Assembly (NCBI GenBank): GCA_019309565.1
Contig: JAFDFZ010000006.1
Span: forward strand, 1 to 64,000
From: Deltaproteobacteria bacterium
Lineage (GTDB): Bacteria; Desulfobacterota; Desulfobacteria; Desulfobacterales; SURF-15
Length of the DNA stretch: 64,000 nucleotides
Direction: 5' to 3'
The notes beneath the pieces are model-generated. The model was not told the origin of the DNA and made no database searches. It was given only the letters and a program-made list of their open reading frames with translations. Below are positions 1,027-57,395 of the stretch, piece by piece; position 1 is the stretch's first letter; each line of letters begins with the position of its first letter. Both the position numbers and the translations under genes were made by a program.

Positions 1027-2280
1027 ATGACATCATCCCCAAAAGGTACCATTGCGCTGATGGGCTCTGGAGAGCTTACCTCCACAATGGTGGAAGTGCA
1101 CAAGGAATTGTTGGGTCGGGTATCCGGCATACCACGGCCTGTATTCCTCGATACCCCAGCTGGGTTTCAACTGAATGTAGATCAAATATCCCAGAAGGCT
1201 CTCGAATATTTTGAACGGCACGTGCAATGCACAATGACTGTAGCCTCTTTCAAATCAGCCGAGATCACCACGCCATATGAAGCCGAGCAAGCGTACCGAA
1301 CCCTGAGGGAAGCCAATTACGTGCTGATAGGCCCCGGCAGCCCAAGCTATGCCGTACGGCAGTGGCGAAAGACCCCCATCGGTGAAATTCTAATTCGCCT
1401 GATCGAATCCGGGGGGTGCCTTGTGGCGGCCAGTGCCGCAGCGCTTACGGTGGGTCGCTTCACTCTTCCCGTCTATGAGATATACAAGGTAGGTGAAGAG
1501 TTGCACTGGATTGAAGGAATGAACATTCTCGGACATTTTGGCTTGGATCTGGTTGTGGTTCCACACTGGAACAATGCAGAGGGCGGAACGCACGATACCC
1601 GTTTCTGTTATATGGGAGGTTCCCGTTTCGAAAGACTAAAAATGCTTCTGCCAGAGGATGTGAGAATCTTGGGGCTTGATGAACACACCGCCTGCATTCT
1701 TCATTTCGATACGGATGAAGTGGAGGTTAAGGGTATCGGGCACATTTTCCTTCATTATCAGGGCAAGGAGATGGTTTTTAAGAAAGGGGATCGATTTTCC
1801 ATTGAGGTACTCAGAGGTGGAGGTTTGGATGGGAAATGGAAAGCCGTTTCCAAACAGCCGACTCCATCGGATGTGGCTGCAGGAGATAGGGACACTTCAT
1901 TCTGGGATCGCATCCATGAAATTGAGAGGCTCTTTCACGGCAGCCTTGAGAAACATCGGCCCAGGGAAGCTACCAATGCACTTCTTGAGCTTGATCGCAT
2001 CATCTGGCAGGCAAGGCAGGATCTGGAGAGCGAAGAGTTCATTTCTCAGGCAAGGGATATTTTGCGCGAGATGATTGTTTCGCTGGGAACAAGACTTGAA
2101 ACCTCTCCGAAAGACAGAGCGGATTGCGTGGGGCCCGTTGTAAATGAGTTGTTAAAGCTGCGCAATGAATTACGAAATAAGAAGCAGTGGCAGCAGGCGG
2201 ATGCCATTCGTGAAAGCCTGGCCCGGGCTGATGTGATAGTTGAAGATACTAAAGAAGGGACCATATGGCGCCTGAAGTGA
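1027..2280 (+). CDS. Fusion protein: N-terminal peptidase S51/cyanophycinase-like (type 1 GATase-like) domain plus C-terminal cysteinyl-tRNA synthetase DALR/C-terminal-like domain
   Basis: N-term IALMGSGELTSTMVE...GPGSPSYAVRQW...AASAAALTVG; C-term ELLKLRNELRNKKQWQQADAIRESLARADVIVEDTKEGTIWRLK resembles the CysRS C-terminus. Confidence 0.75.
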   Translation: MTSSPKGTIALMGSGELTSTMVEVHKELLGRVSGIPRPVFLDTPAGFQLNVDQISQKALEYFERHVQCTMTVASFKSAEITTPYEAEQAYRTLREANYVLIGPGSPSYAVRQWRKTPIGEILIRLIESGGCLVAASAAALTVGRFTLPVYEIYKVGEELHWIEGMNILGHFGLDLVVVPHWNNAEGGTHDTRFCYMGGSRFERLKMLLPEDVRILGLDEHTACILHFDTDEVEVKGIGHIFLHYQGKEMVFKKGDRFSIEVLRGGGLDGKWKAVSKQPTPSDVAAGDRDTSFWDRIHEIERLFHGSLEKHRPREATNALLELDRIIWQARQDLESEEFISQARDILREMIVSLGTRLETSPKDRADCVGPVVNELLKLRNELRNKKQWQQADAIRESLARADVIVEDTKEGTIWRLK

Positions 2281-2290
2281 TTACAAAAAA

Positions 2291-4171
2291 CTAAAAATCT
2301 TTAAAATCGTCATCCTCCAGCGGGATGACCTGGTCAGGCTTCTGTCTTTGGGGCTGGGGGGATTTGGTATTGTCGCTGTCCTTGGCCTCTTCGAGTGTGC
2401 GTGGGGGATCATTCACAACCCATTTTTCACCTTGCTTTGTTTCTTTTTCCTTCATAGTTTTCATTTTTTTCTCGTTCTTTCCTCCGATGATCATTGCCAG
2501 TTCTTCAACAACATGCCTCATCTGCTCGGCCTGAGCGTTCATTTCTTCTGAGGCTGAAGCTGATTCCTCGGCACTGGCCGCACTTTGTAAGGTTACTTTG
2601 TCGATTTCCAGAACAGCCTGATTTATTTGGTCGATACCACGGGATTGTTCTTTTGATGCCTCCGATATCTCTGCTATCAGTTTGCTGATATTTTCAGTTT
2701 CTTTTGAAACCGTAGAGAAGGCTTCATTTGTGTTGGATAAGACCCTGGAGCTTTCTTTTACCTTGGTTACAGTATTTTCGATAAGCATTGTTGTATTTTT
2801 TGCTGCGTCTGCAGACCGTATGGCTAGATTCCTGACTTCGTCGGCCACCACGGCAAAACCCGCACCCGCCTCCCCGGCCCGCGCGGCTTCAACTGCTGCG
2901 TTCAGTGCCAGCAGGTTGGTTTGGAATGCGATTTCATCAATGGTTTTCACGATCTTTTGCGTTTCTTCGTTGGATTTTGAAACTTCCTCCATTGCCTGAA
3001 CCAGGTCGTTCATGGATTTGGTTGCTTCATTTACCACCTTCACTGTATGTTCCATAAGTGTATTGGACTGGTCTGCGTTTTGCGCGTTCTGTTTCGTCAT
3101 AGAGGCCATCTCTTCCAGTGATGCGGAGGTTTGTTGAATCGAGGCCGCCTGTTGGGCCGAACCTTCCGCCAGTTGCTGGCTGGCAGAAGAAACCTGTTCG
3201 GCCGCCGATACAACCTGGCCAGCGCCGTCAGACAGGGTTTTGATGACAGCCCGGATATTATTAACGATGGAACGGGTTGAAAAAATGGAGAACAGTATAC
3301 CAATAAAGACTGAAATTGAAATAAACCCCAGAATAATGGAAGTTGAGAACTGTTCGATGTCTCTTGACATTTTAATTGTGCTGTCTCCAAGTTCTCTGAT
3401 AAGATTGGTTAAGTTTTTCTTGCGTTTCTGCATTTCAGAGCTGTATTTGAGCTGATTGACCACTTCGGCGTGGTGCTTTCCCAGCAAATGGCTGACACCT
3501 TCCATATTTTTTTTGATTTCATCTCCTATGGGCCGTAATTCATCGCTGGTTTTTATGTTTTCATACCAATCTTCGATTGCTACCTTCTGGTCTGTAAGCG
3601 CATCCTGTAGTCTTTCCCAGCGCATATCGGTGTTTCGGTCAAGATAGACAAGACCGGAAGCAACGGCGATTTCGGTCTTGGTGAGCATATTTTCCACCAA
3701 AAACTCTGCTTGCTTTATCAGGTCGTTTTGCCGAGAAAAAACCTTCTTGATTTCCGAATCAAGCCCGGCTTTCTTTTCCTCTGAATCGGTATATTTGTAA
3801 AATGCTGTTTTGTATGCTCGGATTTCTTTTGTCGCCTGTTTCAGTTTTTGTTTGAATTCAGCACTTACAGCTGGGTGGCTCAAGATCCGATCGATTGATT
3901 TAACGGTATTGTCCAGATAACTTGATACCAATTTCTTCGCTTTTCTTTGCTGATGCCGGCTCTCTTCATAAGAGTTCAGCAGATAGTAATCAGTATTCTC
4001 TTTAGCGGATGCAAAGTGTCGCTGAATATGGTCTAGCTCCTTGAACAGATCCGCGCCGTCCAAAACTTTTTGGAGTGCGAAGTAACCGGCTCCTCCCACA
4101 ACGGCCGTCAAGCATATGATGATAAAAAAACCCAAACCGATTTTCTTGCCCAACGAAGTGTTTCGAAACAT
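2291..4171 (-). CDS. Methyl-accepting chemotaxis protein (two TM segments plus MCP signalling domain)
   Basis: Hairpin-tip motif [40 protein letters not shown]-terminal TM; start chosen at [15 protein letters not shown]. Confidence 0.95.
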
Positions 4172-43518: not shown

Positions 43519-44370
43519 TTACCCTTGCAGTCTGGGATCCAGTGCATCCCGCAATCCGTCTCCCACCATGTTAAAAGACATGACTGCCAGCATTATCGCT
43601 ATGCCAGGGAAGACCGCCAGCCAGGGAGATATGATGATATTGTTTACACCGGATTTTAACATGAGCCCCCAGCTTGAATTTGGTGGTTGCGTACCCAGGC
43701 CCAGAAAACTGAGGCTTGCTTCGATTCTAATGGCCGTGGCCACCCAAAGTGTTGCCATCACCGCTATGGGGCCGATTATGTTCGGCAAGATATGTTGAAG
43801 CATGATTCGAAACCCACCACTGCCGCTTGCTCGGGCTGCTTCCACATAACCGATTTCTCTTAGCGACAGAGTGGGCCCGTGAGCCAGTCGGATAAATCTT
43901 GGAGTCAGGGCAACAGATATGGCGATTATCACCTTTGAGGTGCCGGAACCCAGTGCAACTATGACGATAAGCCCCATTAATAATGAGGGCAAAGACAGGA
44001 ATGCGTCTGTCATCCGCATAATCATGTTTTCCATGAACCCTCCGTTATACCCGGCGATAATACCAAGACACGTGCCTAATATTCCGCTGAAAACAACAGA
44101 TAAGATTCCCACCGTCAGAGAGGTTCGAGAGCCCCATATTACGCGAGATAAGATATCCCTTCCGAATTCATCTGTTCCAAAAAGATGGGGCATCTGCGGA
44201 GAGGCAAAGCGATTCAAAATACTCTGCTCCCGGGGATCATAGGGGGAAAGCCAGGGGGCAAATACGGCTACAAGGCTGACCGCTATAATGAGTATCGATC
44301 CGGCTATGGCCACTTTGCTTTCTTTAAATACTGAAAATGCGGTGCGTCTTCTTTCCATAATACTGGTCAA
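43519..44370 (-). CDS. Dipeptide/oligopeptide-type ABC transporter permease (DppC-like)
   Basis: FGTDEFGRDILSRVIWGSRTSL, EAARASGSGGFRIMLQHILPNIIGPI, RIEASLSFLGLGTQPPNSSWG. Confidence 0.96.
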   Translation of the reverse strand: MTSIMERRRTAFSVFKESKVAIAGSILIIAVSLVAVFAPWLSPYDPREQSILNRFASPQMPHLFGTDEFGRDILSRVIWGSRTSLTVGILSVVFSGILGTCLGIIAGYNGGFMENMIMRMTDAFLSLPSLLMGLIVIVALGSGTSKVIIAISVALTPRFIRLAHGPTLSLREIGYVEAARASGSGGFRIMLQHILPNIIGPIAVMATLWVATAIRIEASLSFLGLGTQPPNSSWGLMLKSGVNNIIISPWLAVFPGIAIMLAVMSFNMVGDGLRDALDPRLQG

Positions 44371-44492: not shown

Positions 44493-44610
44493 TTTACCCC
44501 GTTAGAGAAAGCCACCGACTCTTGGCGGTGGTATAGGTAATTCCTTATAGATGGTGGTTTAATGCTACCATCTATAGTCGTTAGAGAACATCGTTCTCTA
44601 ACGGGGTTTA
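44493..44610. repeat. Multi-hairpin palindromic element between dppC- and dppB-like genes
   Basis: accccgttagagaa ... ttctctaacggggt outer arms; tatagatggt/accatctata; ccaccg/cggtgg; cgttagagaac-atc-gttctctaacg (44579-44603). Confidence 0.8.
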
Positions 44611-45549
44611 CTCGTATCGTATTCTTGGATCGGTAATGCCATATGATAAATCTGTGAGAAGGTTTACCACCGCTATGAACGCTGCAAATACCACCAACGT
44701 TCCCTGGATGGTGGGATAGTCTCGGTTGTACACAGCGCCAACCAGCAATTTTCCGATGCCGGGCCTGTTGAATACGATTTCCGTCAACACTGCCGTCCCC
44801 ATCGTGACCCCGATATAAACACCGATAACAGCGATGACCGGGATCAGCGCGTTTCTGAGTGCGTGTTTGTAGATCACTTTCATCTCGCGCAGCCCCTTGC
44901 TGCGTGCGGTCTGGATATAGTCTTCATTTAAGGTCTCAAGCAGGGCCGATCTTGTCATCCGCATGACCATGGATGCATTGACAAGCCCTAAGCTGAGTGC
45001 AGGTAGTATCAAATGATATAATCTGCTTCCAAGATTACCTGTTTCACCTACACCGATCATGGGAAACAAGTCCAGCTTCAAGGAAAACAGAAGCAAAAGC
45101 AATATCCCCAGATAAAACGAAGGAGTTGAAAACCCCATAAGCGCCAGCGTTCGTCCCACATAATCAATTAACCGGTTGCGCTTTAAAGCCGAAAGGATAC
45201 CTATTGGAATACCAATACAGATGCTGATAAGAATTGCACTTAAAGAAAGCTCGATGGAATATGGAAGCATCCGCAGGATTAGCTGTGATACAGGTTTGTT
45301 ATTGCTCAAAGAGGTGCCGAGATCTCCTTTGATCAAATTCTCCAGAAACGATATGTACTGTAATATCAGGGGACGATCTAAGCCCAACTGCTCTCTTAGC
45401 TTTGCAAGCGCTTCGGCTGTTGCATGTTCTCCAAGTATGGCGATGGCGGGGTCCCCCGGCAGTAAATGCATGGCAAAAAAGACGATGGTGACAATGAACC
45501 ACAGTGTTGGAATCATCCAAAGAAATCTTCTTATGATATACTTAAGCAA
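44608..45549 (-). CDS. Dipeptide/oligopeptide-type ABC transporter permease (DppB-like)
   Basis: FFAMHLLPGDPAIAILGEHAT, DYIQTARSKGLREMKVIYKHALRNALIPVI. Confidence 0.96.
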   Translation of the reverse strand: MLKYIIRRFLWMIPTLWFIVTIVFFAMHLLPGDPAIAILGEHATAEALAKLREQLGLDRPLILQYISFLENLIKGDLGTSLSNNKPVSQLILRMLPYSIELSLSAILISICIGIPIGILSALKRNRLIDYVGRTLALMGFSTPSFYLGILLLLLFSLKLDLFPMIGVGETGNLGSRLYHLILPALSLGLVNASMVMRMTRSALLETLNEDYIQTARSKGLREMKVIYKHALRNALIPVIAVIGVYIGVTMGTAVLTEIVFNRPGIGKLLVGAVYNRDYPTIQGTLVVFAAFIAVVNLLTDLSYGITDPRIRYE

Positions 45550-57216: not shown

Positions 57217-57395
57217 AACCCCTTCTTGGTTGACATGATCATAGAGCTTATCGCCCCCATGGGGGAATGGGAGAAAAACCCTTGCCTTTAGGCGAAGACT
57301 TCAGTTTGATTTTTTCCATTGACCCCTAAAGCTACCAGCTTCATCCGGTACGTAGTTTACTTTTATCAACCAGTCATTACCCAATTAAATCTAGC

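Follow-up and report, generated by a model that had tools for sequence, protein, structure and literature searches.

A TTTAC-tagged palindromic element at the dppB stop codon, probably a mobile element with copies inside genes of several bacterial phyla

Location and structure of the hairpin cluster

The window, by which we mean the whole 64,000-nucleotide stretch of DNA that was analyzed, contains a dpp-type permease cluster in which a group of hairpins lies between dppB (44608-45549, minus strand) and dppC (43519-44370, minus strand). The initial annotation placed these hairpins at 44493-44610, which is nearly exact: positions 44493-44611 (119 bases) are one copy of a TTTAC-tagged element with both TTTAC motifs included, and the mobile unit proper is 44498-44611 (114 bp). 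The dppB stop codon falls within the right TTTAC of the element. The parts of this copy are the following.

44493-44497, plus strand: target pentanucleotide TTTAC, on the host side of the left cut; constant on the left side in most of 40 copies, with unrelated flanks beyond it, and present once in the orthologous empty proB site
44498-44611, plus strand: mobile unit, 114 bp or 38 codons, CCCGTTAGAGAA...TTCTCTAACGGGGTTTAC, from the alignment of 40 host copies
44496-44509, plus strand: left inverted-repeat arm ACCCCGTTAGAGAA, pairing with the right arm TTCTCTAACGGGGT at 44594-44607
44512-44531, plus strand: hairpin 1 (CCACCGAC...GTCGGTGG type; CCACCG/CGGTGG), with 96.8% of cells paired and compensatory changes across phyla
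44546-44576, plus strand: hairpin 2 (TATAGATGGTGG...CTACCATCTATA; TATAGATGGT/ACCATCTATA), with compensatory changes in 8 of 11 pairs
44579-44603, plus strand: hairpin 3, CGTTAGAGAAC-ATC-GTTCTCTAACG, a perfect 11-bp hairpin that competes with the outer stem; 97.9% of cells paired, no compensatory changes
44594-44611, plus strand: right end TTCTCTAACGGGGTTTAC, whose terminal TTTAC is the element's own, from the host-copy alignment and cross-phylum end matches
44608-44610, minus strand: dppB stop codon TAA inside the right TTTAC (antisense GTAAA), from the ORF at 44608-45549; the frame is open for 327 codons upstream

All of the pairings first described for this region (outer arms, two inner stems, and an alternative 11-bp hairpin) are present in the sequence, and the folds are mutually exclusive as claimed, with hairpin 3 competing with the outer stem. 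The terminal inverted repeats at the element ends, CCCCGTTAGAGAA and TTCTCTAACGGGG, are perfect over 13-14 bp. As single-stranded DNA, 44493-44611 folds at -30.4 kcal/mol (z = -8.7), which none of 200 shuffled sequences equaled. Among 27 long cross-phylum copies, 46 cells in hairpins 1 and 2 had compensatory changes, compared with 15.5 in shuffles. Hairpin 3 stays paired with no such changes, and therefore its primary sequence is conserved as well. Most copies have AAAG 5' of hairpin 1, and a constant equivalent 5' of hairpin 3 is absent.

Copies and empty sites in the host genome

Searching the host assembly (5.47 Mb in 288 contigs), we found about 45 copies, so the sequence is not single-copy. 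About 40 long copies, including the one in the window, matched over ~120 bp with 89-100% identity and are dispersed through the genome. The right-end pattern occurs at 47 sites, and four minimal copies are 40-bp palindromes with the sequence TTTACCCCGTTAGAGAACNNNGTTCTCTAACGGGGTTTAC or close variants of it. Eight further right-end loci were inspected: seven proved to be decayed or short copies, and the eighth (C162) is a lone motif that has no left end. Mean pairwise identity among the host copies is 0.91, and they are young.

The consensus layout is flank-TTTAC|CCCGTTAGAGAA...TTCTCTAACGGGGTTTAC|flank, with the right end usually reading TTTACT; nearly all copies have a C directly after the right TTTA. 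In the host alignment the edges are sharp, with the sequence past either TTTAC unshared between copies, and the orientation relative to TTTAC is identical in every copy with two intact ends (one end is truncated or altered in L027, L028, L031, L032, L044, and L046). The unit is therefore directional, with the left TTTAC as the target and the right TTTAC as the element's own end. The target flanks have no similarity to the arms over 25 bases on either side.

Sites with and without the element could be compared in several cases. In the proB gene of genome G153, a 117-bp insert splits ..NGKF from T..SGGM, and its flanks, once joined, read NGKFTSGGMNTKLQAAEIA and hold only one TTTAC; the relative G560 has GQFTSGGMTTKLKAAEIA (..QFTSGGM..), with one TTTAC and no insert, and the insert is absent in the other relatives aligned at this site too. 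Within the host, several copies occupy exactly the TTTAC that terminates another repeat family, one that carries GTAG, or variants of that repeat (L016, L022, L038, and, via their left flanks, L033 and L037), and in other host copies of that repeat the TTTAC is followed by unrelated sequence, so they are empty. One such empty GTAG-tagged repeat, ..GACCCCTAAAGCTACCGGCTTGAAGCCGGTACGTAGTTTACT, lies in the window itself at 57310-57361; it also ends in TTTAC and has several copies in the host genome.

Read antisense, TTTAC is GTAAA, which supplies a TAA. In 6 of the 40 host copies the element closes a frame of at least 100 codons in the TAA register, compared with 1-2 in the other registers, and L038, with a variant right end, closes such a frame in addition to these six.

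Two unusual arrangements were seen among the copies. At L132 (3350-3480) there is a head-to-tail pair of elements with one common TTTAC, where the right end of one copy served as the target for another. In genome G152, the copies at L253 (4869-4910) and L257 (4514-4624) are bounded by inverted flanks, as they would be after insertion into a hairpin loop of the host DNA, an arrangement that would suit a single-strand target.

Distribution across phyla

At least 106 stretches from named genomes contain the exact 18-base right end, and a reversed-pattern control gave near zero matches. The matches listed come from at least seven phylum-level groups, with Omnitrophota foremost and the others including Elusimicrobia, Nitrospirae, Thermodesulfobacteriota/Deltaproteobacteria, Planctomycetota, Auribacterota, and several Patescibacteria. 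Among these same matches, 104 of 113 right ends had a left end within 260 bp. Its occurrence in the host's phylum is patchy (6 of 395 genomes). All or nearly all of the genomes with the element are MAGs, in which binning errors may confuse the list of phyla and repeats may be collapsed by assembly.

The end sequences are kept across phyla while the interiors diverge, a contrast due in part to the choice of matches by one end. Four Uhrbacteria copies have a mean pairwise identity of 0.68, and these copies are old. The element offers a horizontal-transfer marker common to Omnitrophota, Elusimicrobia, Nitrospirae, Planctomycetes, and Patescibacteria. In a separate group of loci, L258-L263 (G152, GWF2_42_12), we noted a sister subfamily with the ends TTTACCCCGTTAGAAAG and CTTTCTAACGGGGTTTAC, in which both arms changed together, as expected of paired ends. 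Viral contigs searched with the element gave no match, and in the open-access literature searched, neither the end sequence nor FTPLEKA appeared in any paper.

Insertions inside proteins and at the prepilin cleavage site

One sense frame (FTPLEKA...SLTGFT) and one antisense frame (VNPVRE...AFSNGV) of the element are open in many lineages, and its length is often a multiple of 3; these properties let it survive inside genes. We found frame-preserving insertions in ProB, GlyS, DapA, PriA, a histidine kinase, a multihaem cytochrome, and others. The DapA insertion comes directly after the start and ahead of the domain, and those in PriA and the histidine kinase use the antisense frame. When compared with solved structures, the extra stretch in each case is the element: in GlyS, residues 90-130 stand in place of 4 residues, in the histidine kinase 58 residues in place of 19, and in ProB 66 residues in place of 33. 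In the host, copy L023 is in frame, antisense, within a LysM/TPR protein. The host-lineage copies have a sense-frame TAA, and a protein-tolerant design is therefore not fully valid there. Element-derived peptide matches were also seen within long frames of 527, 574, and 622 aa in the Omnitrophota genomes G563, G550, and G156.

Among the matches listed, 18 right ends run straight into the N-terminus of a prepilin, reading ..SLTG|FT[LFM][ILV]E... Fifteen of these insertions are a multiple of 3 in length (range 54-150 bp); of the other three, L102 and L174 are composite yet open and L080 has a frame break. The native short leader remains ahead of the element (MIQKLTKG|FTPLE...SLTG|FTLIE), and pilin models begin exactly at the second, rebuilt G|FT (GspG E = 2e-39). 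Since the right end rebuilds G|FT, the inserted peptide lands in a leader that would be due for removal, and the prepilin peptidase would be predicted to remove it together with that leader. A class of odd long-leader pilin genes is explained by insertion of the element.

The fraction of prepilin TTTAC sites that are occupied is high in three genomes (5/12 in G146, 5/18 in G155, and 3/4 in G160, where about 0.2 or less was expected), with p from 5e-7 to 4e-10. This excess may come from tolerance alone, or from duplication of pilin genes, with the element itself having no site preference, an account to which we give about an even chance. If about 15% of TTTAC sites are assumed to be tolerated, the excess in G146 falls to p = 0.002, so that much of it can be put down to tolerance; the bases immediately ahead of TTTAC in prepilins show no clear preference; and the neighboring pilin genes at L074 and L100 have common interiors, as after duplication. 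Against this, the prepilin insertions differ in gene, length, and interior between genomes and also within G155 and G146. At L100 (Paceibacterota, 1689-3700) three neighboring pilin genes each have a copy at the same GFT position, which fits either recurrent insertion or gene duplication.

We tentatively propose, with somewhat less than even confidence, that the element represents a TTTAC-tagged palindromic trans-phylum superfamily with ends shaped to hide in proteins (FTPLE at the left, SLTG|FT at the right). By inserting at the prepilin cleavage site it would rebuild that site, and the parasite peptide would be cut off by the prepilin peptidase with no scar at the protein level, as a protein-level counterpart of an intron. 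The element makes such post-translational neutralization of selfish DNA testable.

Search for the mobilizing enzyme

The host genome has 12 Y1-type genes, and RAYT/TIRYT-like Y1 genes are present in most of the element-bearing genomes we examined. No element ends (≤3 mismatches) were found within 1.5 kb of 53 Y1 loci, and the readable terminal inverted repeats at Y1 genes were GGGGACG.., GGGGTCAG.., or others, never CCCCGTTAGAGAA. The host Y1 genes of the TIRYT kind at L051, L052, L053, and L054 have their own perfect or near-perfect terminal inverted repeats (GGGACGTTG.., GGGACGTATTAAAC, GGTGTCAAATCTCGAT). The initial proposal of a non-autonomous IS200/IS605-like or REP/BIME element was right about the kind of element, in that it is multi-copy, dispersed, and directional, encodes no enzyme, and has a fixed 5-nt target with no other duplication; it has no GTAG tag, and no Y1 gene with matching ends was found.

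Neither the host genome nor G146 yielded an autonomous TnpA (Y1) copy with the element ends, although collapsed MAG repeats could hide one. G146 is the densest genome, and its listed ends pair almost without exception into short elements; of the 20 seemingly lone-end loci inspected there, nearly all have a partner no more than 130 bp away, and one, L280, is truncated. Clustering of the neighborhoods around copies gave no recurrent enzyme gene; what recurs is genes for pilins, secretion, and transport, together with the element's own frames. Four element-bearing Patescibacteria genomes had zero Y1 matches, which fits old, immobile copies and also leaves room for another enzyme.

Directionality, a target with no duplication, and the hairpins indicate single-strand HUH chemistry, and the long inverted ends indicate the TIRYT branch. 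Movement would most likely be in trans by a single-strand HUH (Y1) transposase, probably TIRYT/RAYT-like, an assignment that we consider evenly balanced.

Origin of the dpp hairpin cluster

We conclude with good confidence that the hairpin cluster in the dpp genes is one insertion of a small, non-autonomous, TTTAC-tagged, REP/RPE-like palindromic mobile element. Copies insert 3' of TTTAC in a single orientation and terminate in their own TTTAC, so that the flanking sequence is left intact. The ends rather than the variable middle are conserved, the element folds as three hairpins or as one outer stem, and the antisense GTAAA restores stop codons by giving TAA, as in dppB. The dpp-operon hairpin is a passenger insertion at the dppB stop codon and not a dedicated regulator, and the inserted copy may have an incidental influence on the dpp mRNA.

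A functional RNA element of the dpp operon, such as the switch or processing site of the initial annotation or an attenuation site between dppB and dppC, is very improbable. The dpp-sense RNA of 44493-44611 does fold very stably (-46.2 kcal/mol, z = -7.1, equaled by 0 of 200 shuffles), its stems are mutually exclusive, and the minus strand has a single weak stem resembling a terminator; however, the number of such stems is at the chance level (1 compared with 0.5 +/- 0.8 in shuffles), Rfam models gave no match to the element at E ≤ 1, near-identical sequence occurs at about 40 unrelated genomic loci, and insertion at a stop codon accounts for the location.

Two other types of mobile element were also weighed against the preferred reading. 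A MITE of a DDE transposon, with inverted repeats CCCCGTTAGAGAA, a 4-bp target duplication TTTA, and an unseen DDE transposase, would explain the perfect 13-14 bp inverted ends and the TTTA on both sides, but we regard it as unlikely. The target duplications made by DDE transposases normally vary or are palindromic, whereas here a C follows the right TTTA in nearly all copies and the orientation relative to the non-palindromic TTTAC is constant despite near-symmetric ends; in addition, no DDE gene was found between paired ends or recurring near copies. Slightly less probable still is an element moved by a tyrosine recombinase, in which the joined ends TTCTCTAACGGG-GTTTAC-CCCGTTAGAGAA would resemble a dif-like core site and TTTAC would be the crossover region. 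The joined ends have perfect 12-6-12 symmetry, an asymmetric core would explain the fixed direction, and such an enzyme would suit the Patescibacteria lacking Y1 genes, but tyrosine recombinases usually need arm similarity at the target, which is absent from the 25 bases on each side, and there is no associated recombinase gene. An integron attC site, considered because of the GTTAG-type arms, was rejected, as the copies are dispersed and their edges appear to be at TTTAC rather than at a GTT core.

Comparison with known systems

Rickettsia provides the best-known cases of in-frame mobile DNA. The Rickettsia palindromic elements (RPEs) are about 100-150 bp, palindromic, and multi-copy, are found in frame in unrelated genes that are still functional, and have no known dedicated transposase (PMC10969869, PMC3733652); the classified families carry a CGTC tag and are in Rickettsia (PMC3733652), with the tag reported for RPE-4 and RPE-6. 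The TTTAC element is likewise in frame in full-length genes (ProB, GlyS, DapA, PriA, HisK, prepilins). It differs in having no CGTC, in having TTTAC at both ends with one end sequence over many phyla, and in being concentrated at the prepilin cleavage site, for which we know of no RPE report. The TTTAC element takes this behavior to deep-branching phyla of free-living bacteria, where a single end sequence is conserved and insertions occur in essential enzymes and, time and again, at one functional site in pilins.

Classical REPs are defined by a GTAG tag. Like REP, BIME, and REPIN sequences, the TTTAC element is small, dispersed, hairpin-forming, and often at gene ends, and just as the GTAG termini of REPs give ORFs their TAG stop codons (PMC3733652), TTTAC/GTAAA gives TAA. 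In contrast, GTAG is absent at the hairpin foot, where TTTAC/AAAG is found (40 host and 27 cross-phylum copies), the cleavage sites reported for RAYTs are CT/CA (PMC8266576), and no RAYT gene among the 53 Y1 loci is flanked by a TTTAC-element unit.

With IS200/IS605 elements of the IS608 type it shares insertion in one direction, 3' of a short constant target with no further duplication, and hairpins near both ends. In those elements each hairpin is preceded by a guide that pairs with the cleavage site; AAAG, 5' of the left hairpin here, is in the position of such a guide and may act as one. The TTTAC element differs from them in its long terminal inverted repeats and identical left and right cut sites (TTTAC), and no IS200 element with TTTAC-element ends was found. 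Long terminal inverted repeats up to the cut site are untypical of IS200/IS605. From DDE-type MITEs, which share terminal inverted repeats, it differs in its single orientation relative to TTTAC, compared with their insertion in either orientation and their duplication of the target.

TIR repeats or TIRtrons flank or derive from TIRYTs (Y1 subclass 2.1), enzymes with a C-terminal HTH (PMC6006769), and the TIRYT consensus is GGGGWSAS (PMC3733652). The TTTAC element has terminal inverted repeats as well, and such enzymes are present in most of the element-bearing genomes examined, but the repeats at Y1 genes read unlike those of the element. Because neither the GTAG and CGTC tags nor a RAYT, TIRYT, or IS200 owner was found, we class these sequences as new TTTAC-tagged palindromic miniature elements.
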